A stretch of 64,000 nt of DNA, from assembly GCA_012842395.1 (NCBI GenBank), contig DUSX01000004.1, positions 124,001 to 188,000 on the forward strand, written 5' to 3'. The stretch's first letter is position 1. Every line of letters starts with the position of its first letter. The translations under genes were made by a program, and so were the position numbers. This document shows, piece by piece, positions 21,323 to 44,757 of this stretch. This DNA comes from Bacillota bacterium. GTDB taxonomy: Bacteria; Bacillota; SHA-98; UBA4971. The notes beneath the pieces are model-generated. The model was not told the origin of the DNA. It did not search any database and worked only from the letters and a program-made list of their open reading frames with translations.

Positions 21323-21346
21323 CCCTTGCTCACCCCTCGCGAAATT

Positions 21347-26654: not shown

Positions 26655-26681
26655 CGGCGGGCCCCGAGGCCGGGCCCGCCG
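26655..26681 (-). terminator. GC-rich hairpin downstream of fhs
   Basis: A 10-bp perfect stem (26655-26664 pairing with 26672-26681, 7-nt loop), 73 nt past the fhs stop. No T-run follows on the minus strand, so it is a weak terminator candidate. It is the only structure I see in the 339-bp gap 26415-26753. Confidence 0.4.
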
Positions 26682-26753
26682 GTCAACAACGCCAACCACT
26701 CAGGAACGCGACCGGGCGCGGTACCACCAGCCCTGAGGCCGCCTCGTGTTCCT

Positions 26754-28457: not shown

Positions 28458-29872
28458 TCGCCCCTTTCCCGTTTGGCACGAATGAACTTGTCTATCCCGC
28501 GCGCAGCGAGCTTGCCTGCGCCCATCGCGGCTATCACCGTGGCAGACCCGGTCACTATGTCGCCGCCCGCGAATATCCCGGGAACGCTCGTCTCGCCGGT
28601 CTCCTCGTTGATAACCACGTTTCCGTGGCGCCCAAGCTTGAGCCCGGGCACGCTTCTCACTAACAGGGGGTTAGGATCCGTGCCCACCGCGGAGATCATC
28701 GTGTCTACGTCGATCACGAATTCCGAGCCAGGCACCGGCACCGGCCTCCGCCTGCCGCTCTCGTCCGGCTCCCCCAGCTCCATCCTTATGCACTCCATGC
28801 CCCGGACCCAGCCTCGCTCGTCACCCAGAACGCGCACCGGGTTGGTGAGGAGCATGAGCTCGACCCCCTCCTCCTCCGCGTTCTCGATCTCCTCGAGCCT
28901 CGCTGGCATTTCCGCGCGCGACCTTCGGTACACTATGGTGACCTTCTCCGCGCCGAGCCTGAGGGCTGTCCTTGCGGCGTCCATCGCCACGTTTCCCGCG
29001 CCCACCACCGCGACGCGCTTGCCCACGCGAATCGGTGTATCATACTCCGGGAAAAGATACGCCTTCATGAGGTTCGAGCGCGTCAAGAACTCATTTGCGG
29101 AGTACACACCGTTGAGGTTCTCGCCGGGGATGCCCAGGAAGTGCGGTAGACCTGCCCCGGTTCCGAGAAAGATCGCGTCGAACCCGTCGCGAAAGAGCTC
29201 GTCAACGGTCAGTGTCTTTCCCACGAGCGTGTTGGTCCTGATCTCGACACCGAGCCGCTTAACGTACTCCACCTCTTCGTCCACTATGATCTTCGGCAAA
29301 CGAAACTCTGGAATACCGTACCGGAGCACCCCGCCCGTGGAGTGGAGCGACTCGAAGACCACCACCGAGTACCCCATTCGCGCGAGGTCCGCGGCACACG
29401 TGAGCCCCGCAGGGCCGGACCCGACCACCGCAACCCTGCCTGCACACGCGTGGGCGGAAGCCGGGCCCTGAGCATCCCGCGCACCTAGAGCCCTTTCGTA
29501 ATCCGCGGCGAAACGCTCAAGGGCACCGATGGCCACGGGCTTGCCTTTCTTGCCCAGGGTGCATCTGGCCTCGCACTGGGATTCCTGGGGGCAGACGCGC
29601 CCACATATCGCGGGAAGGCTGTTTTTCTCCTTGATCTTCGCGGCAGCCTCGGCGAACTTGCCTTCGCTGATGAGCTTCACGAACGAAGGGATGTCCACCT
29701 CCACAGGGCACCCTGCCACGCAAGGACGCTTCGGGCAGCCGATGCACCGCTTCGCTTCCTCCACGGCGATCTCGGCCGAATACCCGAGGGCCACCTCGTT
29801 GAAGTTCCGTATCCGTTCTCGAGGATCTTGCTTCGGCATAAGATGCCTGTCTACTTTCGCCGGCATTTGCAT
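28454..29872 (-). CDS. nfnB: NADPH-binding subunit of NfnAB-type transhydrogenase (GltD/NfnB family)
   Basis: 472 aa. N-terminal Fe-S domain with [14 protein letters not shown] (about 42-55) and [15 protein letters not shown] (about 90-104), then two Rossmann domains: FAD site [30 protein letters not shown] and NADPH site [25 protein letters not shown]-terminal [17 protein letters not shown]. The family includes glutamate synthase small chains, but the adjacent nfnA makes NADH-dependent reduced ferredoxin:NADP+ oxidoreductase the better call. Overlaps the nfnA 3' end by 22 nt; alternative starts at 29866 and near residue 12. Confidence 0.88.
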
Positions 29873-30702
29873 CCCTCCGCATGCGCCTTGTACCGCTCCA
29901 TGGCAAGCTTCTCCTCGGCGAGGAACCGTGTCTGCCTCGCCATGAGCTCGTCGAAATCCACCTTGTGCCCGTCGAACGCGGGCCCTTCAACACACGAAAA
30001 CATTGTCTTACCGTCCACGGTCACCCGGCATGACCCGCACATCCCGGTGCCATCGACCATTATGGCGTTCAGGCTCACGATGGTCTTGACGCCGAACTCC
30101 GCCGTGACCCTGCACGCAGCGCGCATCATCGGAAGGGGCCCGATGGCGACTACCTCGTCGGGACGAAGGCCTCCGGCAAGCAGATCGTGAAGGAGCCCCG
30201 TCACGAACCCGTGATACCCATAGCTTCCGTCGTCCGTGCAGTAATGAACCTCGTCGCTGACCGCTTCCATCCTGTCCTGGAAGATCAGTAGGTCTTTTGT
30301 CTGGGCACCGATGATCGAGACAACCTTCGTACCCAACTGGTGGAAGGCCTTGGCCTCCGGGTATATAGGAGCGACCCCCACCCCGCCCGCCACGCACACC
30401 ACGGTATCGAGACGCCTTATGTCCCTCGGGGTCCCGAGCGGGCCGACGATGTCGAGAATGGCATCGCCCTCCTCAAGGGTGCCAAGCTCACACGTGCTTT
30501 TCCCGACCTCCTGAAACACCATGGTAATGGTCCCCGCCTTGGGGTCGCTGTCCGCAATGGTCAGGGGAATCCTCTCACCGTGATCATGGATGCGCAACAC
30601 GAAGAAGTGGCCCGGGCGCGCATGCTCCGCGACCTCCCGCGCTTCCACAACGAACAGCTTGATCCTCGGGGCAAGCTCCTCCTTCTTGATGATCCTGTGC
30701 AT
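29851..30702 (-). CDS. nfnA: FAD/[2Fe-2S] subunit of NfnAB-type transhydrogenase (sulfide dehydrogenase-like)
   Basis: 283 aa from ATG 30702 (GGGGGAGAG upstream). Ferredoxin-NADP reductase fold: FAD-binding beta barrel RPGHFFVLRIHDHGERIPLTIAD, NAD-binding VCVAGGVGVAPIYPEAKAF, and a C-terminal cysteine cluster DGTGMCGSCRVTVDGKTMFSCVEGP for the [2Fe-2S]. NfnA binds NADH and bifurcates with NfnB, exchanging NADH, NADPH and ferredoxin electrons in the cytoplasm. First gene of nfnA-nfnB-fhs. Confidence 0.88.
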   Translation of the reverse strand: MHRIIKKEELAPRIKLFVVEAREVAEHARPGHFFVLRIHDHGERIPLTIADSDPKAGTITMVFQEVGKSTCELGTLEEGDAILDIVGPLGTPRDIRRLDTVVCVAGGVGVAPIYPEAKAFHQLGTKVVSIIGAQTKDLLIFQDRMEAVSDEVHYCTDDGSYGYHGFVTGLLHDLLAGGLRPDEVVAIGPLPMMRAACRVTAEFGVKTIVSLNAIMVDGTGMCGSCRVTVDGKTMFSCVEGPAFDGHKVDFDELMARQTRFLAEEKLAMERYKAHAEGCKCRRK

Positions 30703-31235
30703 GTCTCTCCCCCTTATCCGTCGCACAAAGTGAGGGCACACCAGCCTCCGCGCCCAATTTGCGGCAGGCGTCAGGCGCCAGGCGCCGCTGTTGCAACCGC
30801 CAGCTCCTCCGCCCCAGACGAACCGCCCTGCCTCGGAGTCGGGCCCGGTTCCCCATCCTCACTTAGGCCGCAGCGCGCCTAAGCGCTGCGGCCCCCAGGT
30901 TACTGCGAGATCTCTTGATACATTCGCCAGACTTCCTGCTATTCCTTGCGACCACACTGAACTATCAAGCCGTTTTTGAAAGCCTGGCTTCACCCCCCCA
31001 GGGTCCCGCCGTCGATTGCCGCGATGCGGTAGCCTAGTAACGATGCCCTAGCCGTGACAGGGTGGCACGGGGACTGCGCTGGAATGCGGGCGATGTCGCG
31101 ACCGACGCAGGCGGGGACTTCGCTCCGGGCCCGGGGCACCGCGATCCGGTGCGGCCCTGCTCCTGCCTTGGAGACAACAGGCGGTTGCCATTCTCATCCT
31201 TTCGATGGGGCCAGTCGCAGGCTGGCACGCACAAC
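30703..31235. other. Gene-free interval between rex and nfnA
   Basis: 533 bp with no ORF resembling a protein. It holds a perfect 11-bp stem with 6-nt loop at 30866-30893 (GGCCGCAGCGC/GCGCTGCGGCC), not followed by a T-run on either strand. The nfnA promoter is presumably here; a TTGATA near 30966 on the minus strand is suggestive but lacks a good -10. No Rex-box palindrome was found by eye. Confidence 0.5.
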
Positions 31236-31877
31236 CTAGAGGTAATACGCAAGGTGCATGAGCTCCACACTTAGGTCGGTGTTATGAAGCCGTACACCGT
31301 CCGGAACCCTCAGCTTGACGGGGGCGAAATTCAGGATGGCCTCGATGCCGGCGTTCACGCAGGCGTCGACCACCCGCTGCGCCGCCTCCGCTGGAACCGC
31401 CACTATCGCCATGCGGATCTGCCGACTGCGCGTCACATCCGGGATAGCGTCCACATGCTCCACTACCACGTCGCCGACCCGCGAACCCACCTTGGCCGGG
31501 TCGGAATCGAAAAGCGCCGCCAGTCGGAGATGGTAGTTTCTTTCGGCGGCGCGTCGACCTATGATGTATCTCGCCAGAGCCTGGCCAAGGCTGCCGGCCC
31601 CGATGATGGCCACATTTATCTCCTTGTGCAGGTTCAGAACCGACCTGAGCTCATCGCGGAGCACGGCTATCTGGTAGCCAACGCCTTGCTTGCCGAAACC
31701 GCCAAGGAAATTGAGGTCCTTTCGGACTTGCGCGGGGCTCACCCCGGCCCTCTCACCCAGCTCGAACGAGGAGATGAGGCCGCCGTGCACATCTTCGTCG
31801 AGGGTCTCGAGAACACGGAGGTATATAGGCAGCCGCCTTATGACAACATCCGGAATCCGCAGCTTCCTCAATGCCAT
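31236..31877 (-). CDS. rex: Redox-sensing transcriptional repressor Rex
   Basis: 213 aa. N-terminal winged helix (about 1-80: VVIRRLPIYLRVLETL, SPAQVRKDLNFLGGFGKQGVGY) and a C-terminal Rossmann domain with VAIIGAGSLGQALARY (89-104) that reads the NADH/NAD+ ratio; C-terminal helix SVELMHLAYYL swaps in the dimer. High NADH releases it from DNA. ATG 31877 has GGGGGT immediately upstream; a second ATG lies 9 nt earlier. A sigma-A-like promoter lies at 32085-32113. Confidence 0.96.
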   Translation of the reverse strand: MALRKLRIPDVVIRRLPIYLRVLETLDEDVHGGLISSFELGERAGVSPAQVRKDLNFLGGFGKQGVGYQIAVLRDELRSVLNLHKEINVAIIGAGSLGQALARYIIGRRAAERNYHLRLAALFDSDPAKVGSRVGDVVVEHVDAIPDVTRSRQIRMAIVAVPAEAAQRVVDACVNAGIEAILNFAPVKLRVPDGVRLHNTDLSVELMHLAYYL

Positions 31878-32084
31878 ACCCCCCATGGGAAGTTCCGGCG
31901 CCATCGGCCACGCGAACGCGCTTTTCCTGGCCTGGCAGGGGCCCGACCTACGAGCCTCGCGTTCGACGGTATTCGACGCGACGGGCCCTGTTCCTCCCCC
32001 TTGTCTCTGGCCCGCTTCTCCGCCTGGCGAGCCCCGCGCTCCGATAGAGCTCGGGCGGAGAACCCGGACCTCGCCTTGTCCCAT

Positions 32085-32113
32085 ACTATAGCACACCAAA
32101 AGCGGCCTTACAA
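32085..32113 (-). promoter_or_regulatory. Sigma-A-type promoter of rex
   Basis: Minus strand TTGTAA (32113-32108) and TATAGT (32090-32085) with a 17-bp spacer, about 200 nt upstream of the rex start. Two mismatches in the -35 and one in the -10. It lies in the 376-bp gap 31878-32253 between hydA and rex, which also holds the hairpin at 32192-32227 and no gene. Confidence 0.6.
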
Positions 32114-32191
32114 TCTCCGCCAACGCCCATCGCCAACTCCAACCGCCGTCCCAGACCGCGACCGCGCAGAAACCACGCGCATGGTACGCGC

Positions 32192-32227
32192 AAGGGAGCG
32201 GAACAGGCGCGCCCCGTCCGCTCCCTT
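32192..32227 (-). terminator. Hairpin after hydA, likely end of the hyd operon
   Basis: Perfect 11-bp stem AAGGGAGCGGA/TCCGCTCCCTT with a 14-nt loop, 26 nt past the hydA stop. Only a short CTT follows on the minus strand, so termination may be weak. It lies just upstream of the rex promoter. Confidence 0.55.
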
Positions 32228-32253
32228 CTGCCTTGCCCCATTCCGGGACGAGC

Positions 32254-34014
32254 TCAACCCGCGGCCTCACCGCCGCACGCGGCCCTGCTCATCCACGGGT
32301 ACTTCTCCCTCGGGGTGTAGTGCGTGTGCAGAAGACGATGAGATACCTCGCCGAGCGGCTCGCCCAGGAACTCTGCGTATATCTGCTTGATCGCGGGGTT
32401 CAAGTGGGACTTCCTGTACGGGAGACGTCTGTCCGCTTCGTACAGGGCCCTGCCACGGATGCCGCGGATCTCCATGGTCGTGGGGATCGGCTGGCCACCG
32501 CCCCCCACGCACCCGCCGGGGCAGCACATTATCTCTATGAAATGATAGTCAGCCTTGCCCTCGCGGAGGAGGTCCAGGATCTTCTTGGCGTTGCCCAGGC
32601 CATGTGCCACGGCGACCCTCACGTCGAGGTCTCCAACCCTGACCGTGGCCTCCTTTATGCCCTCGAGGCCTCTTACCTCCTCGAATTCGATCGCCGGGAG
32701 CTCGGCCCCGGTGGCCACCTCATAGACCGTGCGAAGCGCAGCCTCCATCACGCCGCCGGTCGCCCCGAAAATAGCGCCCGCGCCGGTGGAGATGCCCATC
32801 GGCTCGTCGTGCTCCTCTTCAGGCAGGTCCTCGAACCGGATGCCGGCCTCGCGCAGCATCCGTCCGAGCTCGCGGCTGGTCAGCACCACGTCGACGTCCT
32901 TGTAGCCCGAGTCGCACATCTCAGGCCTGTCTGCCTCATACTTCTTTGCAGTGCACGGCATGAGCGACACCGAGAAGATGTTCTTGGGATCGATGCCCGC
33001 CTTGCGGGCATAGTAGGTCTTCACGAGCGCCCCGAACATCTGCTGAGGCGACTTGCACGTCGAGACGTGCTTCAGAAGGTCAGGGTAGAAGTGCTCCCCG
33101 AACTTTATCCACCCCGGGCTGCACGACGTGATCATCGGGAGGACCCCGCCCTCCTTCAGCCTCTTCAGGAACTCGTTGCCCTCCTCGATGATGGTGAGAT
33201 CGGCCGTGAAGTCGGTATCCATCACCTTGTCGAACCCGAGCCTGCGGAGAGCGGCGACGAGCTTACCGGTGATGATCTGGCCGGGTGGCAGGCCCATCTC
33301 CTCTCCGATGCTGACCCTTGTGGCGGGCGCAGTCTGAACCACCACATGCTTATTGTGGTCGGCAATCGCCTCCCAGACACGGGCGGTGTCGTCGCGTTCG
33401 GAGATGGCACCCACCGGACACGCATGGATGCACTGGCCGCAAAGGGCGCACGCGACCTCGTCGAGGCCGCGGCCAAATACCGGCGTGATCACAGTGTCAG
33501 CGCCGCGACGCGACGGGTAAAGCACCCCCGCCGCCTGCACGTCGTGGCACATGGAGACGCACCGCCGGCACAGTATGCACTTGTCAGGCTCTCGAACTAT
33601 GGCCGGGGTGGAGTGATCCTCCGGGAGCCCGCGAAGCTTGTGCTCGAAGCGGATCTCCCGCATGCCGAACCTCTCGGCGAGCGCCTGAAGCTCGCAGTTG
33701 CGATTCCTCACGCACTGGAGACAATCCTGGGGGTGACGAGCGAGGAGCAGCTCAAGGTTTACCTTCCTAGCCTGCCGGACGCGCGGCGTGTTGGTGTACA
33801 CGACCATTCCGTCCTGCACCGGGTAGGCACACGCAGGCTGGAGGAGCTTCTGGCCCTCGATCTCAACGACACATATCCGGCAGACGGCTTGTACCGCCAG
33901 GTCTGGGTGGTGGCAGAGCGTCGGGATGTCGATGCCGAGCTTCTTCGCAGCTTCCAGGATGGTCGTGCCGGCATCGGCCTCGACCCTTCGGCCGTCTATG
34001 GTCACCATTGCCAT
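32254..34014 (-). CDS. hydA: [FeFe]-hydrogenase catalytic subunit of NADH-linked (HydABC-type) hydrogenase
   Basis: 586 aa. Order of domains: [2Fe-2S] (Cys34, 45, 48, 62), His-Cys3 cluster (HPQDCLQCVRNRNC, 94-107), two [4Fe-4S] motifs (CILCRRCVSMC at 146-156, CALCGQCIHACP at 189-200), then the H-cluster domain: L1 TSCSPGW 296-302, L2 MPCTAKKYE 352-360, L3 IMCCPGGCVGGGGQP 495-509. L1 has Ser where the textbook motif has a second Cys; as I recall this variant is allowed in the family. There is no C-terminal [2Fe-2S] extension as in Thermotoga HydA. ATG 34014 has AAGGAG about 10 nt upstream. Confidence 0.95.
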   Translation of the reverse strand: MAMVTIDGRRVEADAGTTILEAAKKLGIDIPTLCHHPDLAVQAVCRICVVEIEGQKLLQPACAYPVQDGMVVYTNTPRVRQARKVNLELLLARHPQDCLQCVRNRNCELQALAERFGMREIRFEHKLRGLPEDHSTPAIVREPDKCILCRRCVSMCHDVQAAGVLYPSRRGADTVITPVFGRGLDEVACALCGQCIHACPVGAISERDDTARVWEAIADHNKHVVVQTAPATRVSIGEEMGLPPGQIITGKLVAALRRLGFDKVMDTDFTADLTIIEEGNEFLKRLKEGGVLPMITSCSPGWIKFGEHFYPDLLKHVSTCKSPQQMFGALVKTYYARKAGIDPKNIFSVSLMPCTAKKYEADRPEMCDSGYKDVDVVLTSRELGRMLREAGIRFEDLPEEEHDEPMGISTGAGAIFGATGGVMEAALRTVYEVATGAELPAIEFEEVRGLEGIKEATVRVGDLDVRVAVAHGLGNAKKILDLLREGKADYHFIEIMCCPGGCVGGGGQPIPTTMEIRGIRGRALYEADRRLPYRKSHLNPAIKQIYAEFLGEPLGEVSHRLLHTHYTPREKYPWMSRAACGGEAAG

Positions 34015-34058
34015 TTGCGTATCACTCCTTCCGTCTCTCCTGCTTGACCCCGGCGGGA

Positions 34059-35669
34059 TCAAATCCCGCACGTCCCGGTTGGACAGCGCTTCTCATTGAT
34101 ATGGGATTCGAATTCGTCGCGGAAGTACCTGAGCATCGTCTTTATGGGGACCGGCGCAGCTTGGCCGAGGCCGCAGAGGGACGACGCCTGCATCACCGAG
34201 CCGAGCTCGTCGAGGAGCTCGAGATCCCCTGGTCTTCCCTCGCCGCGAGCGATCCTCGCCACGATCTCACGAAGGCGCGCAGTGCCCTCGCGACACGGTG
34301 TGCACTTGCCACACGATTCGTGCTCGAAGAACCTCATGAAGCACTCGGCTATGTCCACAATGCAGTGGCTGTCGTCCATGATAAGGAGGGCGCCCGAACC
34401 AAGCGCCGAGCCATGTTCGGGCAAGGTGAAGTAATCCATCGGCACGTCGAGCAGCTCGCGCGGGAGGCATCCCCCGGACGTGCCGCCGGTCTGGGCCATC
34501 TTGAAGCCCTTGCCTCCGGGTATACCGCCTCCAATATCGTATATCACGCGGCGAAGCGTGATGCCCATGGGAACCTCGATGAGCCCCTTGTTGTTGATGT
34601 CGCCGGTGAGCGTGAAGACCTTGGTGCCGGGGCACCTCTCAGTGCCAAACTTCCTGAACCAGTCAGGCCCGTTCAGCAGGATTGGCGGGATGTTCGCGAT
34701 CGTCTCCACGTTGTTGACGACAGTGGGCTTCCCGAACAGACCCTCCGTGCCGGGGTAGGGTGGCTTCACCCTGGGCTCGCCCCGCTTGCCCTCGATCGAT
34801 TCTATGAGCGCGGTTTCCTCCCCACACACGTACGCGCCCGCGCCCTTTCGTATTTCCACATCGAATGAGAAACCCGACCCAAGAATGTCGGACCCGAGCA
34901 GGCCGAGGGCTCTTGCCTGCTCTATGGCCTTGGTCAACCTCTCAATAGAAAGCACGTATTCCCCTCGGACGTAAATGAAACCTTTGTCCGCTCCCACCGC
35001 ATAGCCCGCTATGGCCATTCCCTCGAGGATGCTGTGAGGGTCTCCCTCAAGGATCAATCGGTCCTTGAATGTACCCGGCTCCCCCTCGTCCGCATTGCAA
35101 AGTATGTACTTCTGGTCGGCCTCGGCTTTCGCCGTGAAACTCCACTTGAGCCCTGTTGGGAAAGCCGCGCCGCCCCTGCCAACGAGCCCGGATTTCCTCA
35201 CGGCCTCGATGACGTCTGCGGGCTTCATCTCTGTCAGGCACCTCGCGAGCGCTCGGTACCCGTCTCGTGCGATGTACTCCTCGATGGACTCGGGATCGAT
35301 GACCCCGCAGTTCCGGAGGACTATGCGCTCCTGCACGCCAAGGTAGGTCGGCTCCTCGTACGTCACCACTCCGGCCTGGGGTGCTTCGCCCACGAGCCGT
35401 CTCACCACTCGCCCCTTCAAAAGGTGTTGCTCGACTATCTCAGGAACGTCGGAGAGCTGGACCTTCTGGTACAAGGTGCCCTCCGGATAGATCACGATCA
35501 CCGGCCCAAGGTCGCAAGGCCCTAGGCAGCCCGTCTCGACTACCTTGACCTCTTTGTCTAGCCCTTGCCGTTTCACCTCGGCGATGAGCGCCTCGCGAAC
35601 CCCCTTGCAGCCCTCGAGCACGCACGGGGTTCCCCCGCAAACGAGGACGTGCGAACGGTAGAACTCCAC
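34059..35669 (-). CDS. hydB: NADH-binding NuoF-like subunit of the hydrogenase (HydB)
   Basis: 536 aa. Residues 1-90 are a thioredoxin-like [2Fe-2S] domain (CGGTPCVLEGC, ETGCLGPCDLGP), then the NuoF core with FMN site GRGGAAFPTGLKW, NADH site KGAGAYVCGEETALIESIEG, SLBB domain, and [4Fe-4S] site SCGKCTPCREGTARL. The protein stops right after KRCPTGTCGI. Usual HydB proteins (about 600 aa) continue there with a 2x[4Fe-4S] ferredoxin-like domain; it is missing here. GTG start at 35669 with AAGGGAGG 9 nt upstream. Between hydC and hydA. Confidence 0.93.
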   Translation of the reverse strand: MEFYRSHVLVCGGTPCVLEGCKGVREALIAEVKRQGLDKEVKVVETGCLGPCDLGPVIVIYPEGTLYQKVQLSDVPEIVEQHLLKGRVVRRLVGEAPQAGVVTYEEPTYLGVQERIVLRNCGVIDPESIEEYIARDGYRALARCLTEMKPADVIEAVRKSGLVGRGGAAFPTGLKWSFTAKAEADQKYILCNADEGEPGTFKDRLILEGDPHSILEGMAIAGYAVGADKGFIYVRGEYVLSIERLTKAIEQARALGLLGSDILGSGFSFDVEIRKGAGAYVCGEETALIESIEGKRGEPRVKPPYPGTEGLFGKPTVVNNVETIANIPPILLNGPDWFRKFGTERCPGTKVFTLTGDINNKGLIEVPMGITLRRVIYDIGGGIPGGKGFKMAQTGGTSGGCLPRELLDVPMDYFTLPEHGSALGSGALLIMDDSHCIVDIAECFMRFFEHESCGKCTPCREGTARLREIVARIARGEGRPGDLELLDELGSVMQASSLCGLGQAAPVPIKTMLRYFRDEFESHINEKRCPTGTCGI

Positions 35670-35693
35670 GAGAGTAAACCTCCCTTCTGGGCG

Positions 35694-36173
35694 TCACTTG
35701 TATTCTTTTAGGATCAGCGGGACCCGTTCGGGGGTGAGGTTGCCGTACACCGCCTCATTGATCATGATGGCCGGCGCGACGCCGCAAACCCCGAGGCAGC
35801 TGGTGTACTCAAGTGTGAACTTGCCGTCGCTCGTGGTGCCGCCCATCGGGATGCCAAGCTCCCTCTCGAGTGCGTCCACGACGGCCTTTGCTCCCAGCAC
35901 GTGGCACGGAGCGTTCTCACAAACCCGTATTATGTACCGGCCTTTCGGCCTGGTCGAAAACAGGCTGTAGAACGTCGCGACGCCATACACCTTCGACACG
36001 GGGACATCGAGGCCCAAGGCGATCTGGGTGATCGTCTCCTCCGAAAGGTAACCGGCCTCCTTTTGGACGTCGTGGAGGATGGACACGAGGGCTTCGGGTT
36101 TCCTGCAGTATCTTTCGAGGATTCCATCGACCTTGGCCGTACACGCGCGCGTGCCTTCTGACGTCGGCTCCAT
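35694..36173 (-). CDS. hydC: NuoE-like [2Fe-2S] subunit of the hydrogenase (HydC)
   Basis: 159 aa. N-terminal helical bundle (DGILERYCRKPEALVSILHDVQKEAGYLSEE) and thioredoxin-like fold with the four cluster cysteines in CENAPCHVLGA and TSCLGVCGVAP. NuoE/HydC passes electrons between the FMN in HydB and HydA. ATG 36173 with AAAGGAGGGG about 10 nt upstream. It sits between the small 2Fe-2S protein and hydB. Confidence 0.94.
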   Translation of the reverse strand: MEPTSEGTRACTAKVDGILERYCRKPEALVSILHDVQKEAGYLSEETITQIALGLDVPVSKVYGVATFYSLFSTRPKGRYIIRVCENAPCHVLGAKAVVDALERELGIPMGGTTSDGKFTLEYTSCLGVCGVAPAIMINEAVYGNLTPERVPLILKEYK

Positions 36174-36205
36174 GCTCTCCGCCCCTCCTTTCTGTTGGGC
36201 AGGCA

Positions 36206-36568
36206 TCACGCAGTCGCTATGACCCACTCGCCCACAACCTTGCCGTTAACGACGTGGCTTGCCACGATCTGACGCGCTTTCTCCTGCGTCACCTTGCCGT
36301 AGGTCACCTTCGGAGCGCCGGGCTTGATCACGTCAACGATGGGCTCTTGCTCGCATAAGCCCACGCACCCGGTCTGGGTCACCACCACGTCCTGAATGTT
36401 GCGCTTCGCAAGCTCGTCCATGATCGCAGCGAGCGTTTCCCGCGCCCCCGCGGCGATTCCGCACGTGCCCATGCCCACAACGATCCTGGTTGTTTCCTTG
36501 CCCTCCCTCAGTCTGGTCATCGCCTGTGCCTGTTTCCTAATGCGCTCAAGCTCTTCAACGGTCTTCAT
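36206..36568 (-). CDS. Stand-alone thioredoxin-like [2Fe-2S] ferredoxin protein of the hyd operon
   Basis: 120 aa. Cysteines in GMGTCGIAAGARET and TQTGCVGLCEQEP give the C-x(n)-C ... C-x3-C pattern of thioredoxin-like [2Fe-2S] ferredoxins, the same fold as the HydB N-terminus. C-terminal KVTYGKVTQEKARQIVASHVVNGKVV resembles the HydB strand that follows this fold. First gene after the Rex-box-like site, so probably the operon leader; ATG 36568 with GGAGGTG 6 nt upstream. Role likely an electron carrier or extra hydrogenase subunit; not established. Confidence 0.82.
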   Translation of the reverse strand: MKTVEELERIRKQAQAMTRLREGKETTRIVVGMGTCGIAAGARETLAAIMDELAKRNIQDVVVTQTGCVGLCEQEPIVDVIKPGAPKVTYGKVTQEKARQIVASHVVNGKVVGEWVIATA

Positions 36569-36654
36569 CGCGGACACCTCCTGACTTTCCCCTCTCCACC
36601 AAGCCGCGTCAGGCTTGGGTCAGATTGCGCTATATCCGTACATACTTATGTCGC

Positions 36655-36823: not shown

Positions 36824-37249
36824 TCACTCAGGCCCTATCACCCGCGTGACCTCCGCCCTGAACCGTTCGGGGTTGACCCGCTTTCCGTACGCGTAGACCA
36901 GCCCGTACGACAGACCGAGAAGCACGAGGCCTACCACTGCGCCGAACAGGGACGCGGACGCCCCCCTCCCCAAGGCTCTCGCCACGACAGTCCCGAGGTA
37001 TATGCCTACGACCATGAAGATGAGAGGCACCATATACGCGATGAAAGCCGCCCCGAGCACCCGGGAGCCCTCCAGTTCCAGCGCAACCTCGTCGCCCGGA
37101 CGCGCGCCCGCGCGGTTGGTCGCCTCCACGACCACGGTATCGGTGCGTCCGAAGTCGCAAGCCTTGCAATGACGGCAAGCTTCGTGACGCGTGACCTCTA
37201 CCTTGGCCAAACCCCCGTAGACCTCGACAACCCTGCCACGTTCTTCCAC
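36824..37249 (-). CDS. rseC: SoxR-reducing-system/RseC family membrane protein
   Basis: 141 aa. An N-terminal beta domain with CRHCKACDFGR (likely Fe-S or metal cysteines) and the family's alternating V-rich strands, then two hydrophobic helices (about 66-88 and 95-118). RseC proteins are associated with Rnf/SoxR reduction in Proteobacteria and accompany redox clusters in clostridia. GTG 37249 has GGGAGGG about 6 nt upstream. Last gene of the HydS-type operon, 51 nt after the HATPase gene. Confidence 0.82.
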   Translation of the reverse strand: MEERGRVVEVYGGLAKVEVTRHEACRHCKACDFGRTDTVVVEATNRAGARPGDEVALELEGSRVLGAAFIAYMVPLIFMVVGIYLGTVVARALGRGASASLFGAVVGLVLLGLSYGLVYAYGKRVNPERFRAEVTRVIGPE

Positions 37250-37300
37250 TAGGAACCCTCCCTGGTGGCATCCCATGCGTCGCCACCATGCCTGTCTCAG

Positions 37301-37846
37301 TCATGCTCGCTGGACCTCGCGCAGGCCTTCCCGGATGATATTCCTGATGATTCCCGCGAGCGCCGGGGTTGTCGGGGGTATGTCCCCCAGCAACCTTCTG
37401 AAATCCTGCGAGTCAAAGGAAAAAACCCTGGCACCGCGCGCATGTACGTACCTGAATCTCACGTCCGGGTTGCACATCACGAGGACCGTGATTGTCTCCG
37501 CCATGTCGCCCAGCGGTGCCCGGTCTATGTGGCTCAACCTAAACGTGGCCCGCACTCTCGTGCCGTGTCCTGGCACAGACTCGACGCAAAGGTCTCCCCC
37601 GGCCAGTCTGGCCGCGTCACGAAACAACGGAAGGCCAAGCCCCACCTTGCGTGTGGTGCGCGATGTATAAAACGGGTCCAACGCTGATCTTAGTATGTCC
37701 GCGGGCATCCCGGCCCCGTCGTCCGCCACTTCTATAGTGAGGAGGTCCGAAGGCTCGTCCTCCGAGACGATCACGTCGACGGTCCGAGCCCCCGCCGCGA
37801 TGGAGTTTTGGACGATGTCAAGGACGTGCAACGACAGCTCACGCAC
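37301..37846 (-). CDS. HATPase_c-domain regulator (histidine-kinase-like ATPase without receiver/HisKA)
   Basis: 181 aa. N box HVLDIVQNSIAAGA (Asn14), G1 DDGAGMPAD (42-50), and the ATP lid FYTSRTTRKVGLGLPL (59-74). No dimerisation/phospho-acceptor helix precedes it, so it is not a complete sensor kinase; residues 110-181 form an extra small domain of unknown role. Such proteins recur beside group C/D [FeFe] hydrogenases. 18 nt after the PHP gene, 51 nt before rseC. Its target could be a protein serine, as in anti-sigma kinases, but this is inference. Confidence 0.78.
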   Translation of the reverse strand: MRELSLHVLDIVQNSIAAGARTVDVIVSEDEPSDLLTIEVADDGAGMPADILRSALDPFYTSRTTRKVGLGLPLFRDAARLAGGDLCVESVPGHGTRVRATFRLSHIDRAPLGDMAETITVLVMCNPDVRFRYVHARGARVFSFDSQDFRRLLGDIPPTTPALAGIIRNIIREGLREVQRA

Positions 37847-37864
37847 GCAAGGCCCCCCAACCTT

Positions 37865-38605
37865 TCACCCGACCGGCCAAGCCGCCCGGCCCCCTATCGA
37901 AGCGAGCGCGAGCTTAACCTCTGAAAAGGTCGGTCGCTCCAGGCGAAACGCCGTGTAACCGCGGATCTCGCTAAGCCTGTGGGCGTCGGAGGATACGACC
38001 AGCTGAAACCCAGCGAGCTGCGGAAACATCTCCCTAGCCCGGCTCGCACCGAGCCGCGCGGAAACCTCCAGTGCATCGGGGCATAGGCGCCGCGGGACAA
38101 AGCCCAGGTTCCTGATGAGGCTGAACGACGGCCTGTCGACGTGCGCCGGGATCACAAGGCCTCCAAGCTCCCGGACGCGGCAGGCCACGTCCTCTATGCC
38201 CATAGATGTTGACGCCAGAAGCAGTCGCGTCACTCGACCCTTCAAGACGCCGCGCGGGTCCAGGACGACCTGCTCGCCAAACCTCGCCTCGTCGTTTGCC
38301 ACGTTCGGCAGGCCTTCGTACACCTCCGCCTGCCACCTCGAGAGCGCCTCCGCGTCCTCGAAAAACGTGAGGACATGGACGTCCTCGCGCGTTTGCACCT
38401 CTATGCCGCAAAGAACCGCCACTCCCGCCGCCGCGCCCGCCTCGGCCACCGCGATCGCATTCTCAGCGGAGTTGTGGTCGCATATCCCAAGTAACCCCAC
38501 GCCTTGCTCGGCCGCAACCTCCGCTATGGCTGGCGGGGTCATCTCCGCCTCCGCGCAAGGGGATAGAGCGGTGTGAACATGAAGGTCAGCAAGGCACACC
38601 TCCAA
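37865..38605 (-). CDS. PHP-domain metal-dependent phosphoesterase
   Basis: 246 aa. PHP motifs in order: ADLHVHTALSPC (His9, His11), GICDHNSAEN (Asp43, His44), Glu69 in CGIEVQT, HVDRPSF and SSDAHRLSEI. These ligands form a trinuclear metal site in phosphoesterases such as YciV/RNase AM and PolX-like proteins. TTG start at 38605 with GAGGTGA 7 nt upstream. Between the DRTGG and HATPase genes of the HydS operon; substrate unknown. Confidence 0.85.
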   Translation of the reverse strand: MEVCLADLHVHTALSPCAEAEMTPPAIAEVAAEQGVGLLGICDHNSAENAIAVAEAGAAAGVAVLCGIEVQTREDVHVLTFFEDAEALSRWQAEVYEGLPNVANDEARFGEQVVLDPRGVLKGRVTRLLLASTSMGIEDVACRVRELGGLVIPAHVDRPSFSLIRNLGFVPRRLCPDALEVSARLGASRAREMFPQLAGFQLVVSSDAHRLSEIRGYTAFRLERPTFSEVKLALASIGGRAAWPVG

Positions 38606-38705
38606 CGCGCCCTCACCTCTGACCTAAGCGCGCGCCCGGCGTCCGCGCGCCGGTCGCCGGATCGCTCCGAGTGTTCCGGCAGGCACTGCGCCAGGCACTC
38701 CTCCG

Positions 38706-39062
38706 CTACGAAACCACCGGGAGCCGCCCGCGAATCCCCGCTGCGTAGAGACGGCCCGCGGCCTCGAAGGCCGGCAGGCGGGTTCTGAGAAGCGGGATGC
38801 CTTCCGCATCCGCTCGCCGGACGGCTTCCTCGTGGCACTCCACGCCTCCGGCCACCACGACGGCCGCGAGGCCGACCAGTGTCGCCACGGCGATGATGTT
38901 TTCATGGGCCTGCACGGTCACCCAGATGTCGCCGTCGCGAGCATGAGCCATCACGTCGCTGAGAAGGTCCGAGGCGTAGCCGCACTCGACATCCCTGTCG
39001 AGGCCACCAGCACCGGCTTCGACGGTGCACTCAAGCACGCTGAGGACATCTCGCACCTTCAC
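38706..39062 (-). CDS. DRTGG-domain protein (copy 1)
   Basis: 118 aa, essentially one DRTGG-type domain: MKVRDVLSVLECTVEAG, CGYASDLLSDVMAHARDGDIWVTVQAHENIIAVATLVGLAAVVVAGG, and GIPLLRTRLPAFEAAGRLYAAGI. The domain is a putative ligand-binding regulatory fold also seen in HprK N-termini and CBS proteins. GTG start with GGGGGTGA upstream, 5 nt after the HydS-like gene. Paralogue of the gene at 40835-41326. A 100-bp gap follows before the PHP gene. Confidence 0.82.
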   Translation of the reverse strand: MKVRDVLSVLECTVEAGAGGLDRDVECGYASDLLSDVMAHARDGDIWVTVQAHENIIAVATLVGLAAVVVAGGVECHEEAVRRADAEGIPLLRTRLPAFEAAGRLYAAGIRGRLPVVS

Positions 39063-39067
39063 CTATC

Positions 39068-40417
39068 TCACCCCCCGTCTTCTCTCGGCCCGGGTCCAGC
39101 GCCCATGGCGGACGGGTTCTTCTTCGCGAGGTCGAAGAGCTGTTCCGCGAGGACCTTCACCTGGTCGCGCAGTTTGAAGACGCAATCTGTATCCACTGCC
39201 AGCCCCTGCACGATGTCTTCGGCAAGAGCCCTGCAGTGCGGGGAACCGCAGGACCCGCAGTCAAGCCCGGGCAGCTCCTTCACGACTTTCTCGATCATCT
39301 CCGCCTTGGAGATCGCCCGCGATACATCGTGATCCAGGCGGAAGGCGGGAACTGCCGCGATGTCCTGTCTCATATCAAAGCAGCCAGCCCTGGCACGCCG
39401 AGTGAGCTCCTCTTCTTCCTCCGCTGTGAATGCAGGCATATCGGCGAATCTTTTCGCGAGCTTGTTCAGGTGCACGTGGGCTATGAAGGGGTTGCGAACC
39501 ACGAGCGCGCCTCCGACGCAGCCGCCGATGCACGCCTGCGCCTCAATGAAATCCACGCTGCCGAGCCTGCCGACCTCCACCTCCTCGAGAACGTCGATGA
39601 CGCTGTGAATGCCGTCCACGACAATGTAATTCTCCAGACCAACCGCGGCATTCTCGCCCCCCGATCCTCCCCAGCCGATGCCGGCGCCCGATGCCTTTCG
39701 CCTGGGAGGGACCGAGCCTGGGCTCGCCAGACGCCGCGAGATCTCCCCGTACACGCTGGCGATGGAGATCGCTCCGTCCACAGCCCGGAAGCCGCGCTTG
39801 ACTGCCTCGCGGACCCATGTCACCTTCGCCGGGCACGGCGTGATGAAGAACGTTCCGATCTCGTCCGGCGCGATCCCCAGCTCCCTGCTCTTGCCCTCTT
39901 TCGCCAGCTTGCCCGCGCACGTCATGGGGGAATCAACGGGGATCAAGTGGTCGATAAGCGCGGGGAACCTCACCTGTATGAGCCTCACCACGGCCGGACA
40001 CGCGGCCGATATCATCGGCCGCACCTCCCGGTGCCGCGAAAGATACTCTCGCGTCGCCAGAGTCGCCACGTCGGCACCGCGCGCAACCTCGAACACGTCA
40101 TCGAAGCCCATGTCGATCAGGGCGGCGAGGACCCGGTCGGGGTCGACGTCCGGGCCGAACTGACCGTAAAGCGCCGGGGCCGGCAAGGCGATGGTGTACT
40201 TGAACTCTTTCAGGCGTTCCAACGAATCGGTTATGGCGGTCTTGGCGTGGTTGTCGCAGGTTCTTATGCATTCACCGCAGTCAGTGCACCTTTCCGCGTT
40301 GATCCTGGCTTTGCCCTGCCTCACCCTGATGGCCTCGGTCGGGCAGTTCTTTATGCAACGGGTGCACCCGCGGCACTTTTCTTCGATGAGGAGGACCGAG
40401 TGAAAGAGGCCGCTCAT
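39068..40417 (-). CDS. hydS: Group-D-like (putative sensory) [FeFe]-hydrogenase homologue
   Basis: 449 aa. Two [4Fe-4S] motifs (CRGCTRCIKNCP 15-26; CTDCGECIRTC 44-54), then an H-cluster domain with altered motifs: L1 SAACP 137-141, L2 TPCPAK 193-198 (Cys195), L3 EAQACIGGCVGGA 292-304 (Cys296, Cys300). The four H-cluster ligand cysteines are kept, but the proton-relay Cys of TSCCP is Ala139. The C-terminus carries Cys387-x2-Cys390-x4-Cys395-x16-Cys412, the extra Fe-S motif of group D hydrogenases; there is no PAS domain. ATG overlaps the stop of the anti-sigma-like gene (ATGA). A sensor rather than a metabolic enzyme is my inference. Confidence 0.85.
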   Translation of the reverse strand: MSGLFHSVLLIEEKCRGCTRCIKNCPTEAIRVRQGKARINAERCTDCGECIRTCDNHAKTAITDSLERLKEFKYTIALPAPALYGQFGPDVDPDRVLAALIDMGFDDVFEVARGADVATLATREYLSRHREVRPMISAACPAVVRLIQVRFPALIDHLIPVDSPMTCAGKLAKEGKSRELGIAPDEIGTFFITPCPAKVTWVREAVKRGFRAVDGAISIASVYGEISRRLASPGSVPPRRKASGAGIGWGGSGGENAAVGLENYIVVDGIHSVIDVLEEVEVGRLGSVDFIEAQACIGGCVGGALVVRNPFIAHVHLNKLAKRFADMPAFTAEEEEELTRRARAGCFDMRQDIAAVPAFRLDHDVSRAISKAEMIEKVVKELPGLDCGSCGSPHCRALAEDIVQGLAVDTDCVFKLRDQVKVLAEQLFDLAKKNPSAMGAGPGPREDGG

Positions 40418-40845
40418 GGCAGACTTCCTTTCGGGGGAAGGTTTATCACCATTCTCACGCTCGTGCCTCGACCGACCGTGGACTCGATGTGAAACTGGTC
40501 GGAGTACCTTTTCATGTTGGGCAAGCCCAGTCCCGCGCCGAACCCCATCTCTCGAACGTGCTCGGGTGCGGTCGAATACCCCTCCTGCATAGCCAGGGAG
40601 ATGTCGGGAATCCCGGGACCTTCGTCGTCCGCGGCCACCTCAATGCGGTCAGGCGAGATGTCGACCGCGAGGATCCCACGAGAGGCGTGGATCACTATGT
40701 TCATCTCAGCCTCGTACGCCACGATGGCGGCCCTCCGCGCTGTCTCCGGGTCGACCCCCACCTGACGAAGCGCGCGCTTTACCCGCGCCGCAGCCTCCCC
40801 AGCCGCCTGAAAGTCGCCGCCAGTGACCCTGCACTCAAGGCGCAT
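40414..40845 (-). CDS. RsbW/SpoIIAB-like serine-protein kinase/anti-sigma factor
   Basis: 143 aa. N box YEAEMNIVIHA (Glu46, Asn49), G1 DDEGPGIPD (73-81), lid and G2 GFGAGLGLPNMKRYSD (101-116), C-terminal GRGTSVRMVINLP: the compact GHKL fold of anti-sigma factor kinases. Within the window there is no matching sigma factor or STAS antagonist, so the partner is unknown. ATG 40845 starts inside the preceding DRTGG gene (11-nt overlap), and its stop overlaps hydS, indicating tight coupling of the three products. Confidence 0.85.
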   Translation of the reverse strand: MRLECRVTGGDFQAAGEAAARVKRALRQVGVDPETARRAAIVAYEAEMNIVIHASRGILAVDISPDRIEVAADDEGPGIPDISLAMQEGYSTAPEHVREMGFGAGLGLPNMKRYSDQFHIESTVGRGTSVRMVINLPPKGSLP

Positions 40846-41326
40846 CTCGTGGTCCCCCGCGCGCGGCCCGCTCGCTATCGCCCGCGTTTCCACCGTCCCC
40901 GCCCGCCGCGGGAGCGTTCCCGCCCTCACGGCCGCTGGCCCGAGCCACGGCATCGGCGCCGCTCGTCACCGCACCCGGCCAAGCGCACTTGCCGCGCAGG
41001 CCGGCCTCGAAAAGCAGCCCGGCTGATTCATAGAGCGGGTAGGACGTGCACAGCACGGGAATGCCGGCCTCTTTCGCCATCGAGACTATCTCGGCGGTCG
41101 GCTTCTTGCCGCGGACGAACACGATGGCCGAAAGGTCCATCATCTCCGCCGCCCGGATTATCTGAGGGGTAACCAGCCCTGTGAGAACGAGCATCCTTGC
41201 CCTCGTGAACGCCAGTAGATCGCTGATCAGATCGCACCCGCACGCGGCCTCGATCTCCTGGTCGAGCTTGTCCTCTCCCGTGAGGACCGTCGCGTCGAGG
41301 ATTCTCATGACATCGCGCAGCCGCAC
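40835..41326 (-). CDS. DRTGG-domain protein (copy 2)
   Basis: 163 aa. Residues 1-118 form a DRTGG-type domain (RLRDVMRILDATVLTG, GCDLISDLLAFTRARMLVLTGLVTPQIIRAAEMMDLSAIVFVRGK, GIPVLCTSYPLYESAGLLFEAGLRG), clearly paralogous to 38706-39062. A Gly/Ala/Arg-rich tail of about 40 aa follows. GTG start. First gene of the tightly packed HydS-type operon. Confidence 0.82.
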   Translation of the reverse strand: MRLRDVMRILDATVLTGEDKLDQEIEAACGCDLISDLLAFTRARMLVLTGLVTPQIIRAAEMMDLSAIVFVRGKKPTAEIVSMAKEAGIPVLCTSYPLYESAGLLFEAGLRGKCAWPGAVTSGADAVARASGREGGNAPAAGGDGGNAGDSERAARGGPRDAP

Positions 41327-41995: not shown

Positions 41996-44029
41996 TTACT
42001 CCCAACGTCGCGAAGATTCCTCCTGTTCCTGCAAAAGGGCTGGCTCTTCCGCCCACGGCGGCCGCATATGAAGGTGGAGCGGCAGGACCCGCGTGCCCGT
42101 GATATCGTTACCAAGCTTTGCGAGGACGGCCGGCGTCGCGCTCGCGAACACGAGCGGTAAGTCCCGTCTCGCTGCAAGCTCCTTCGCGAGGCGCAGGCCA
42201 ATCAACACGTCGCGCGGGGTCGTATCCTCACCCATGTGAGTGTTGCTGACGATCCCGGTGAAGGCAAGCCTCGAAGAGTCCTCGATGGATTCCAACATCG
42301 CTTCCGCGCCTTTGACGTCCCTCGTGAAGGGCCGGTTCGCGTTCACCACGAAGAACATGTCATATCCGGCCGCATCGAGTTCCACCGAATACCTTGCGAG
42401 GGCTCTCGCACCAACCGGGTCACCCCCGACGTCGAACACCACCGTGGCGCTCTCATCGTGGAACGCGCGCAGTATGTCGGGGGCAAGCGCGGGAAGGTCC
42501 GCCGCCTCGAATCCCGGAGCCGACGAAACGACCTCTATGCCCTCCCGGACCATCTCGCCCGCCGTCTCCCTGGACCTAAAGTAAGGATTGACGATGTCGA
42601 GGTCCACCACGATGACGCGCGCACCCTCGCGCCGTTTCAGCTTCGCAAAGTTCAGCGACACCTCGGTCTTGCCCGACCCGTACGCGCCGCTGAAGATCAC
42701 GATTCTCTGAGTCTTTGGCAGTCTGCCGGCGACCGACAGCAGATGATTCCTCACCTCGCCCACGAGATACAGCGAGCCGCACACGACCAGGGCTCCGCCA
42801 TCGCCCACGCCCGCCAAGCCCTCGTCCACTGCGTCGAGCGCGTTCTCGTTCACGAGGGCCTCGCACCCTTCGCTCGCCGCCAGGGCGGCGATGGCGCGAG
42901 GATCGGCCCCCCCAAGGCGCGACGACGAGGCTCGCGTGGCGACGATGCGGGACGCGAACCCTGCTATCTCATGGATCATCTCCGCGGCTGGCTTGTCCTT
43001 GGAGATCCCCACAACAGCAGTGACGCGCCGGCCACCTACGATCTCCGCTACCGCGCCGGCGAGCCTCCTGACACCGTCGAGGTTGTGGGCGCCATCCACG
43101 ACGACGAGCGGGCACCGTTGGAGAACCTCGAGCCTCCCGGGCCAGCGGGTGACCTTGAGCCCTCGTCTCAAGGCCTCCGTTCCAACGTTTACTCCGAGGC
43201 TGCGAAGCGTCTCTACGACCCCCACCACGCACGCCGCGTTCTCCACCTGATGCTGCCCTAGGAGCGGGATCTCGAACTCGCCCATGTCGACTCCGCCTGC
43301 ATGAGCCCGGAATACCTGGCGGTCGTCCGCGCGTGCGACGCGCTCGCACCATACGTCCTCGCCCACCACCAGCGTCGGTGCGGACTTCTCTGCAGCTACA
43401 CGCTTCACCACAGCGAGCGCATCCGGGTGCTGGACGCCTATCACCACCGGCACGCCAGGCTTGATTATACCGGCCTTCTCGAACGCGATCTGCTGGATGG
43501 TGCCGCCGAGCTTCTCACAATGGTCCATGTCCACATGGGTGATGACGGAAACAAGAGGTGTGAGAACGTTGGTCGCATCGAACCTGCCCCCGAGGCCCAC
43601 CTCGATTACGGCAAAGTCAGCGCGCTCCTCGACGAAGTGAAGGAACGCTGCCACGGTCCCCATTTCGAACTCCGTTGGTGAACCCAGAGCCCGGTCGGCG
43701 GCCACCTCCTGAAAGTGCGGCTTCAACCTCGTTATGAGCTCCGCGAGACGCGCCCTTGGTATGGGCTTTCCGTTTACCCTGATGCGCTCCGTGTACGACG
43801 AGAGATGCGGGGACGTGTACAGGCCGACCCGGAAACCCGCCGCGCGCAGCACGGACGCTGTCATGGCTGCGACCGACCCCTTTCCGTTTGTGCCTGCCAC
43901 GTGGATGGCTTTGAGTCTCAAGTGGGGCGAGCCTACAGCCTCAAGCAGGGCGAGCGTCCGGCCGAGGCCGAGGTTGACTCCGAACTTCCCGAGGGTGTGC
44001 AAGAAGGCGATGGCTTCTTCGTAGTCCAT
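41996..44029 (-). CDS. folC: Folylpolyglutamate synthase/dihydrofolate synthase fused to a C-terminal P-loop NTPase
   Basis: 677 aa in one uninterrupted frame. Residues 1-430 are FolC: HVAGTNGKGSVAAM (44-56), SPHLSSYTERIRVNG, GLGGRFDATNV, FEKAGIIKPGVP, GAHNLDGV; it adds glutamates to folates. Residues 440-677 are a second NTPase with Walker A GAYGSGKTE (448-456), DLDIVNPYFRSRE (476-488) and FDVGGDP (532-538), like stand-alone SIMIBI-class (MinD/CobQ-like) proteins of clostridia. FolC proteins are normally about 430 aa. ATG 44029 precedes MDYEEAIAFLHTLG. 14 nt after nth. Confidence 0.9.
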   Translation of the reverse strand: MDYEEAIAFLHTLGKFGVNLGLGRTLALLEAVGSPHLRLKAIHVAGTNGKGSVAAMTASVLRAAGFRVGLYTSPHLSSYTERIRVNGKPIPRARLAELITRLKPHFQEVAADRALGSPTEFEMGTVAAFLHFVEERADFAVIEVGLGGRFDATNVLTPLVSVITHVDMDHCEKLGGTIQQIAFEKAGIIKPGVPVVIGVQHPDALAVVKRVAAEKSAPTLVVGEDVWCERVARADDRQVFRAHAGGVDMGEFEIPLLGQHQVENAACVVGVVETLRSLGVNVGTEALRRGLKVTRWPGRLEVLQRCPLVVVDGAHNLDGVRRLAGAVAEIVGGRRVTAVVGISKDKPAAEMIHEIAGFASRIVATRASSSRLGGADPRAIAALAASEGCEALVNENALDAVDEGLAGVGDGGALVVCGSLYLVGEVRNHLLSVAGRLPKTQRIVIFSGAYGSGKTEVSLNFAKLKRREGARVIVVDLDIVNPYFRSRETAGEMVREGIEVVSSAPGFEAADLPALAPDILRAFHDESATVVFDVGGDPVGARALARYSVELDAAGYDMFFVVNANRPFTRDVKGAEAMLESIEDSSRLAFTGIVSNTHMGEDTTPRDVLIGLRLAKELAARRDLPLVFASATPAVLAKLGNDITGTRVLPLHLHMRPPWAEEPALLQEQEESSRRWE

Positions 44030-44043
44030 ACCTGCTGTTTTCG

Positions 44044-44757
44044 CTACTCTGAGGAGTTTTCCTTCAGAAACACACACTCTCTGGACAACAGGCACCCATC
44101 GCACCTGGGTTTCTGCGGCCTGCACCGGCGCCGCCCGTGGGTGATCATGTTGACGTGCAGCGGGTAAACCAGCTCGGACGGGACCACAGAGCCCAAGATC
44201 GCGTGGGCGCGGTCAGCATCGCACCCCTTGGGAATGAGGCCGAGCCGCCGCGCCACGCGGAGGACGTGCGTGTCCACGGGAAAGACAGGCATCCCGCACC
44301 CGAAAAGCAACGTGCAGGCAGCGGTCTTTGGCCCCACGCCGTCGAAGGACATCAAGTAGCCACGCGCCGCGTCCGGATCGAGACCCGAGAGAAACCCCAA
44401 GGAAGTGCTTCCGCGCTCGCGGTGCAGGCGCTCTAGAATCCGCTTTATCCGAGCGGCTTTCACACCGGCAAGCCCGCCCGTCTTTATCGCGTCCGCAACC
44501 TGCGCGACGTCGGCCGTCCTGACCTCGTCCCACGACGGAAACCTCTCCTTCAGACGTCGGAACGCCCTCGCAGAGTTGGTGTCGGATGTGTTCTGCGAGA
44601 GGACCGTGGCCACGAGAGCGTCCAACGGGTCCTCCCGGCGGGGACGAGGCGCGCCGTACATTTGCGTCAAGAGTTTCGCGATTCGCCGTATGCACCGCCT
44701 GAGCCCCCGAGCGTCCGCTGCGGTGGCATGACGCACCGGCATGGAGGATGTCCCCAT
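44044..44757 (-). CDS. nth: Endonuclease III family DNA glycosylase/AP lyase
   Basis: 237 aa. DALVATVLSQNTSD near the N-terminus, HhH motif SFDGVGPKTAACTLLF with the catalytic Lys, catalytic Asp in FPVDTHVLRVARRLG, and a complete [4Fe-4S] site C-x6-C-x2-C-x5-C (CRPQKPRCDGCLLSREC). Excises oxidised pyrimidines. ATG 44757 lies just after the valS stop (44765), so transcription is shared with valS. Some Bacillota Nth homologues have other substrates; this is not decided here. Confidence 0.93.
   Translation of the reverse strand: MGTSSMPVRHATAADARGLRRCIRRIAKLLTQMYGAPRPRREDPLDALVATVLSQNTSDTNSARAFRRLKERFPSWDEVRTADVAQVADAIKTGGLAGVKAARIKRILERLHRERGSTSLGFLSGLDPDAARGYLMSFDGVGPKTAACTLLFGCGMPVFPVDTHVLRVARRLGLIPKGCDADRAHAILGSVVPSELVYPLHVNMITHGRRRCRPQKPRCDGCLLSRECVFLKENSSE

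Follow-up and report, generated by a model that had tools for sequence, protein, structure and literature searches.

Studying a stretch of 64,000 nucleotides from a Bacillota bacterium (assembly GCA_012842395.1, contig DUSX01000004.1, positions 124,001 to 188,000; the whole stretch is called the window in the following) reveals a putative sensory [FeFe]-hydrogenase, HydS, whose gene belongs to a conserved cassette. The other members encode a SpoIIAB-like ATPase (HATP1), two stand-alone DRTGG-domain proteins (DRTGG1 and DRTGG2) and a PHP-domain phosphoesterase (PHP), and the genes of the hydrogenase HydABC usually follow. In some lineages HATP1 and HydS are encoded as one polypeptide, in others DRTGG1 and HATP1. 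As a whole these data are best explained, and on balance probably so, by a hydrogen- or redox-sensing kinase module placed in front of the hydrogenase it watches.

A single open reading frame of about 600 amino acids comprises HATP1 and HydS in all 17 genomes (17/17) of the order of Candidatus Fermentithermobacillaceae. These fusion proteins are 57-93% identical to the query, and the linker between both parts is short. DRTGG1 and HATP1 share one frame of about 269 amino acids in 18 genomes of one class, including Tepidanaerobacter; other families of this class keep the two genes separate. Because the two kinds of fusion occur in different lineages, they are separate events. In addition, one genome (G104; L141/L149, 691-1518) possesses a CBS-CBS-HATP1 fusion; its DRTGG1 is encoded by a separate gene upstream. 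The fusion of neighbouring genes argues strongly, if not conclusively, for physical contact, and these natural fusions single out HATP1 as the best candidate partner of group D HydS proteins, with DRTGG1 as a likely second partner. The fusions are new here, as the open-licence PMC papers we found do not report them.

The cassette was surveyed by scanning 84,980 species genomes, and all counts over loci refer to the 80 best loci returned. DRTGG1, HATP1, HydS, DRTGG2 and PHP are contiguous and co-directional in 58 of these 80 loci, which span Bacillota, Atribacterota and Thermodesulfobacteriota; many of the others are cut by contig ends or contain fusions. The 80 loci also include single records from Armatimonadota and Spirochaetota. 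The usual gene order behind PHP is HydC-HATP2-Fd-HydB-HydA, where HATP2 is a second ATPase and Fd a ferredoxin. Of the 78 loci that extend far enough upstream, 76 carry HATP1 right in front of HydS or fused with it. The recurrence of this gene order in dozens of unrelated genomes is far above chance. A spirochaete (L103) and three loci near a response regulator (L056, L065, L102) have kept the HATP1-HydS pair without DRTGG and PHP genes, which makes this pair the smallest unit kept after their loss. The regulator near the pair is of the OmpR type in L065, L056 and L102, and L065 contains CheW as well.

Within 101 whole genomes of relatives, HATP1 (counted above 180 bits, one copy per genome) and HydS are both present in 40, HATP1 alone in two, HydS alone in one and neither in 58 (Fisher p 1.5e-24, a value which ignores phylogeny). 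Together with HydS, PHP was found in 38 and DRTGG1 in 39 genomes, and HATP2 occurs as one copy in 40 of the 101, nearly the same genomes as HydS. The preservation of gene order across distant orders and phyla is evidence independent of such p-values. The genome with HydS and without HATP1 (G052) carries a degraded HydS. In this complete genome (L114, 6165-7924) DRTGG1 and DRTGG2 are intact, HydS and PHP are fragments and HATP1 is missing. Kinase, DRTGG and PHP genes accompany HydS far beyond close relatives. The initial annotation would have been refuted had its seven families not co-occurred in this way; six of them do, but not RseC, which was rejected as a cassette member: it is present in only 5 of the 80 loci and is a lineage-specific neighbour.

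HydS comprises two N-terminal [4Fe-4S] motifs, the H-domain and a C-terminal four-cysteine FeS motif (PF04060, 382-414), and has no Pfam match to a PAS domain. In the tree it forms a clade with the M2e protein of T. wiegelii and with Thermoanaerobacterium (support 99/98). The group C proteins with PAS domains and the catalytic group A proteins that this genome also encodes fall outside the clade. The H-cluster cysteines (C140, C195, C296, C300) are kept, and these and the four C-terminal cysteines are retained in 80 of 80 orthologues. The position of the proton-relay Cys299 of CpI is occupied by A139 and by a cysteine in none of the 80 orthologues; at the positions of Met353 and Met497 of CpI HydS has T193 and Q294, and the orthologues have T/S and mostly L/Q. 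The T. wiegelii protein shows A/S/L at these three positions, matching the published TamHydS. Because of the tree placement and this second-sphere residue pattern we assign HydS to the group D (M2e) putative sensory [FeFe]-hydrogenases, which agrees with the sensory type proposed initially. Membership in group C was rejected, because HydS lies in a separate clade and no PAS domain was found.

TamHydS from Thermoanaerobacter mathranii reacts with H2, and its signalling partner was left open (PMC8163306, PMC13104023); its C-terminal cluster is not reduced by H2 (PMC13104023). Judging from this published work on relatives, the HydS studied here may be expected to react with H2 as well. The gene product beside TamHydS that was described as an AraC regulator is probably a misannotated DRTGG2 protein, because in T. 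wiegelii, from which we judge, the gene following hydS encodes a DRTGG protein of 111 amino acids without an AraC domain. The source genome harbours two more sensory hydrogenases, both of group C and each beside its own HydABC set (L115, 5594-9646, and L116, 6245-9269). One of them is fused to PAS-HisKA-HATPase and lies beside a sigma-54 regulator, the other is PAS-bearing and lies beside a SpoIIE-type PP2C phosphatase.

HATP1 is predicted to be a serine kinase of the SpoIIAB type. The E/N of the N-box, the DxGPGI motif and the glycine-rich lid GFGAGMGL are near-invariant, and all catalytic residues, including the Glu and Asn of the N-box, are retained. The nearest solved structures by sequence and fold are SpoIIAB (1til by sequence) and then RsbW. 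This closeness would suit classical partner switching, in which HATP1 acts as anti-sigma factor and kinase, a sigma factor is controlled via a STAS antagonist and HydS feeds in the H2 state. However, HATP1 reaches only 54.2 bits (1.4e-14) with the spIIAB profile TIGR01925, below its cut-off of 135, and none of the 80 loci has a STAS or SigF-like gene within 6 kb of HydS. SpoIIAA is the sole STAS protein that the genome encodes; its gene lies beside those of SpoIIAB and SigF in a spoIIAA-spoIIAB-sigF operon, and the STAS position in front of HATP1 is taken by DRTGG1, to which HATP1 is fused in the 18 genomes mentioned. We therefore consider classical partner switching very unlikely. The initial annotation had relayed the HydS signal through a kinase or anti-sigma factor; a tie between HydS and the kinase is supported by linkage and by fusions implying contact, whereas the case for an anti-sigma output is weak.

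The genome encodes only two DRTGG proteins, both in the HydS operon, with Pfam scores of 38.8 bits (DRTGG1) and 30.5 bits (DRTGG2) against a cut-off of 25.2. In the structure model of the fusion, the DRTGG half fits 2ioj with a template modelling (TM) score of 0.78. In multiple sequence alignments D32, S35, D36, T49, G50, R72-G73-K74 and G103 are invariant in DRTGG1, and D32, S35, W47, T49, H53 and N55 in DRTGG2. Of the residues invariant in both proteins (D32, S35, T49), S35 and T49 are possible phosphosites. DRTGG1 occupies the place which SpoIIAA or RsbV hold in classical operons. All residues of the metal site are present in the PHP protein (H9, H11, D43, H44, E69, H77, H155, D207, H209; invariant in 19 aligned orthologues), and its nearest PDB entries are EndoQ (5zb8) and the phosphoesterase 3e0f.

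These proteins could also work through a nucleotide signal, close to the ligand that the initial annotation had considered for PHP and the DRTGG proteins: the ligand of DRTGG1 and DRTGG2 would be an adenine nucleotide or another phosphorylated compound, PHP would break it down, and ligand and HydS together would set the activity of HATP1. The DRTGG1 profile indeed matches the regulatory region of the CBS-DRTGG pyrophosphatase 3l2b, an enzyme known with AMP and Ap4A (from a reference cited in PMC13039410). The CBS-CBS-HATP1 fusion of one lineage is compatible with an adenine-nucleotide input, and PHP, with its metal site complete, is near enzymes acting on nucleic acids or nucleotides. On the other hand no ligand-binding residues were traced, the CBS pyrophosphatase binds its nucleotide across the CBS domains and not by DRTGG, and a locus of the HATP1-HydS fusion order (L110) is missing both DRTGG1 and PHP. 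We regard such a signal as unlikely.

HATP2 consists of an HATPase_c domain and a conserved C-terminal extension of about 75 residues, and it is tied to the HydABC genes. It was rejected as a two-component histidine kinase, since neither Pfam nor the alignment reveals a HisKA/DHp phospho-acceptor domain. A PADLOC scan of PHP, HATP1 and HATP2 for a defence system gave only a weak MzaB ATPase-domain match for HATP2. The position of HATP2 inside the structural operon, the close linkage of the cassette with HydABC and the retention of all H-cluster and C-terminal cluster ligands would fit another reading, in which HydS is no sensor and instead serves HydABC as an accessory factor in redox reactions or maturation, with HATP1, HATP2 and PHP as assembly or quality-control ATPases and nucleases. 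We think this quite unlikely, because Atribacterota, Syntrophorhabdales and other loci have the cassette without HydABC in the fetched surroundings, HATP1 has kept the catalytic motifs of the SpoIIAB kinase, and the proton-relay cysteine is lost in all HydS orthologues.

Rex operators have the consensus TTGTTAANNNNTTAACAA. In relatives the gap between PHP and hydC is long (median 126 nucleotides), and Rex-type operators that match at 12 or more of 14 positions occur in 6 of 35 such gaps, against an expectation of 0.2; 12 of 35 gaps have one with at least 11 matches (1.7 expected). Such operators are fewer before DRTGG1 (3 of 65 with at least 12 matches, 0.4 expected). In the window no site reaches 11 of 14 matches, so that the evidence for Rex comes from relatives. 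A Rex gene lies within 10 kb in 13 of the 80 loci. Because of the operators before hydC we suggest that Rex controls hydrogenase transcription. The arrangement suggests two transcription units, one for the sensory cassette and one, under Rex, for the hydrogenase genes; the cassette could then act post-translationally. Cthe_0335 of C. thermocellum (M2e in Rydzak et al.) was not growth-phase dependent, unlike other FeFe hydrogenases.

In the sensing kinase module favoured here, HydS would be a low-activity [FeFe]-hydrogenase tuned to read the H2 or redox state and not for turnover. It would contact HATP1 directly, forming a sensor-kinase unit which in some lineages is one polypeptide. HATP1 would also contact DRTGG1, which would replace the STAS antagonist (SpoIIAA, RsbV) of partner-switching operons, and the H2 or redox state of HydS would decide whether HATP1 phosphorylates DRTGG1, with S35 or T49 as candidates, or holds it. 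DRTGG2, PHP and HATP2 may carry or reset the signal towards HydABC, PHP being the phosphoesterase limb that resets the system or degrades a ligand. Because hydrogenase transcription would mainly be handled by Rex, the output of the cassette is more likely post-translational than exerted via a sigma factor. We propose only tentatively the narrower version, in which HydS and HATP1 are a single-unit H2-gated serine kinase that performs partner switching on DRTGG instead of STAS proteins and tunes HydABC post-translationally. If true, the signalling logic of an H2-gated kinase acting on DRTGG proteins has not been described before.

Several points weigh against this picture, in which the direction of phosphorylation, the role of PHP and the action on HydABC are proposals. 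An AlphaFold model of the HATP1-HydS fusion (mean predicted local distance difference test, pLDDT, 88.7; predicted TM score, pTM, 0.78) is no proof of a defined interface. The full chain is not always needed, because DRTGG1 and PHP are absent at L110, the one locus of the fusion order read in detail. HATP1 and DRTGG1 must have another input or use in two genomes, G024 (L111) and G051 (L112), because both persist there without HydS. In G051 the DRTGG1-HATP1 genes adjoin RseC, Rex and Nfn-like genes. The co-occurrence statistics are not corrected for shared ancestry. Finally, HydABC need not be the target, because at a number of loci, including those of Atribacterota and Syntrophorhabdales, its genes were not found in the fetched 10 kb.

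In the window itself open reading frames and Pfam matches bear out the seven minus-strand genes of the initial annotation, in the order and with the families given there (Table 1). Both overlaps it had pointed out are correct: an ATGA overlap of HATP1 and HydS at 40414-40417 and 11 nucleotides shared by DRTGG1 and HATP1 at 40835-40845. The longest HATP1 frame begins at 40953, but an alignment with 23 orthologues favours the start MRLEC at 40845. The series is tightly packed at these overlaps but looser between DRTGG2 and PHP (about 100 nucleotides) and between RseC and the next gene (246 nucleotides). Beyond RseC it extends to a 2Fe-2S protein, HydC, HydB and HydA (32254-36577).

Table 1. Genes of the HydS cassette and the adjoining hydrogenase operon in the window.
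Gene	Positions	Strand	Length (amino acids)	Assignment	Basis
DRTGG1	40835-41326	-	163	stand-alone DRTGG-domain protein	Pfam DRTGG 8.6e-10
HATP1	40414-40845	-	143	SpoIIAB-like serine-kinase-type GHKL ATPase	Pfam HATPase_c_2 2.4e-11
HydS	39068-40417	-	449	group D (M2e) putative sensory [FeFe]-hydrogenase	Pfam Fe_hyd_lg_C, alignment, tree
DRTGG2	38706-39062	-	118	second stand-alone DRTGG protein	Pfam 3.5e-7
PHP	37865-38605	-		PHP-domain phosphoesterase, complete metal site	Pfam 9.6e-9
HATP2	37301-37846	-		histidine-kinase-type HATPase	Pfam HATPase_c 2.6e-17
RseC	36824-37276	-		RseC/MucC-like membrane protein	Pfam RseC_MucC 4.5e-27
Fd	36206-36577	-		[2Fe-2S] thioredoxin-like ferredoxin of hydrogenase operon	Pfam/NCBIfam
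HydC	35694-36227	-		NuoE-like	Pfam 1.3e-52
HydB	34059-35669	-	536	NuoF-like	
HydA	32254-34071	-		catalytic NADH-dependent [FeFe] hydrogenase	NCBIfam NF040763 group A6, 905 bits vs cut-off 765

HydB ends with KRCPTGTCGI, without the C-terminal stretch of the 596-amino acid Thermoanaerobacter HydB. HydA scores as NADH-dependent group A6, and this hydrogenase may be a non-bifurcating one. Downstream of HydABC (18718-32270, minus strand) lie genes for Rex, assigned by Pfam, and, judged by eye from sequence motifs, for NfnA, NfnB, formate-tetrahydrofolate ligase, RnfCDGEAB and an ApbE-like flavin transferase; the region from HydABC to Rnf is a redox-balancing super-locus. At 41996-44125 the window contains a FolC-like frame of 709 amino acids, and the part behind its FolC domain resembles a P-loop ATPase (GAYGSGKTE).

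The location of M2e hydrogenases near histidine or serine kinases and bifurcating hydrogenases was already known (PMC3561251). In the open-licence PMC literature none of the papers found speaks of DRTGG, PHP, the fusions or the serine-kinase class; DRTGG combined with hydrogenase gave nothing relevant there, and nothing was found for PHP with a histidine-kinase-like ATPase and hydrogenase. A 2026 paper (PMC13104023) treats the signal output of the group D putative sensory hydrogenases as open and calls the search for interaction partners critical. Here the conserved fusions point to HATP1 as a partner of these putative H2 sensors and to DRTGG1 as a likely second one, and the natural single-chain HATP1-HydS proteins would allow any H2-dependent kinase activity to be measured directly. 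The cassette is present in Thermoanaerobacter, Thermoanaerobacterium, Moorella and Acetivibrio, fermenters and acetogens that are of interest for biofuels and in which the control of H2 versus ethanol yield is a practical question.

Among known systems, TamHydS is close to HydS, as it belongs to the same clade (via T. wiegelii), shares the [4Fe-4S] pair, H-domain and C-terminal [4Fe-4S] cluster without PAS, sits upstream of HydABC and is missing the Cys299 equivalent; the partner fusions and the DRTGG/PHP set, however, are not mentioned in the papers found. Group C enzymes (M2f: TmHydS, HfsB/HfsC, R. albus HydS) are likewise putative H2 sensors tied to signalling proteins and group A hydrogenases, but with PAS domains and histidine kinases or PP2C phosphatases, while group D would use a SpoIIAB-type serine kinase here. 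The [NiFe] regulatory hydrogenase HoxBC has low activity and signals via its bound kinase HoxJ. It thus resembles the proposed module as a low-activity hydrogenase signalling through a kinase (mentioned in PMC8163306), but the hydrogenase is unrelated and the kinase is a PAS-containing histidine kinase with a response regulator. SpoIIAB and RsbW, finally, share with HATP1 the fold, the ATP-binding motifs, the catalytic Glu/Asn N-box and the position right after a small partner gene. They differ in that their partners are STAS and sigma proteins whereas the partner gene of HATP1 encodes a DRTGG protein, and HATP1 has a longer lid with the motif REMGFGAGMGLPN and is fused to the hydrogenase or to DRTGG in relatives.

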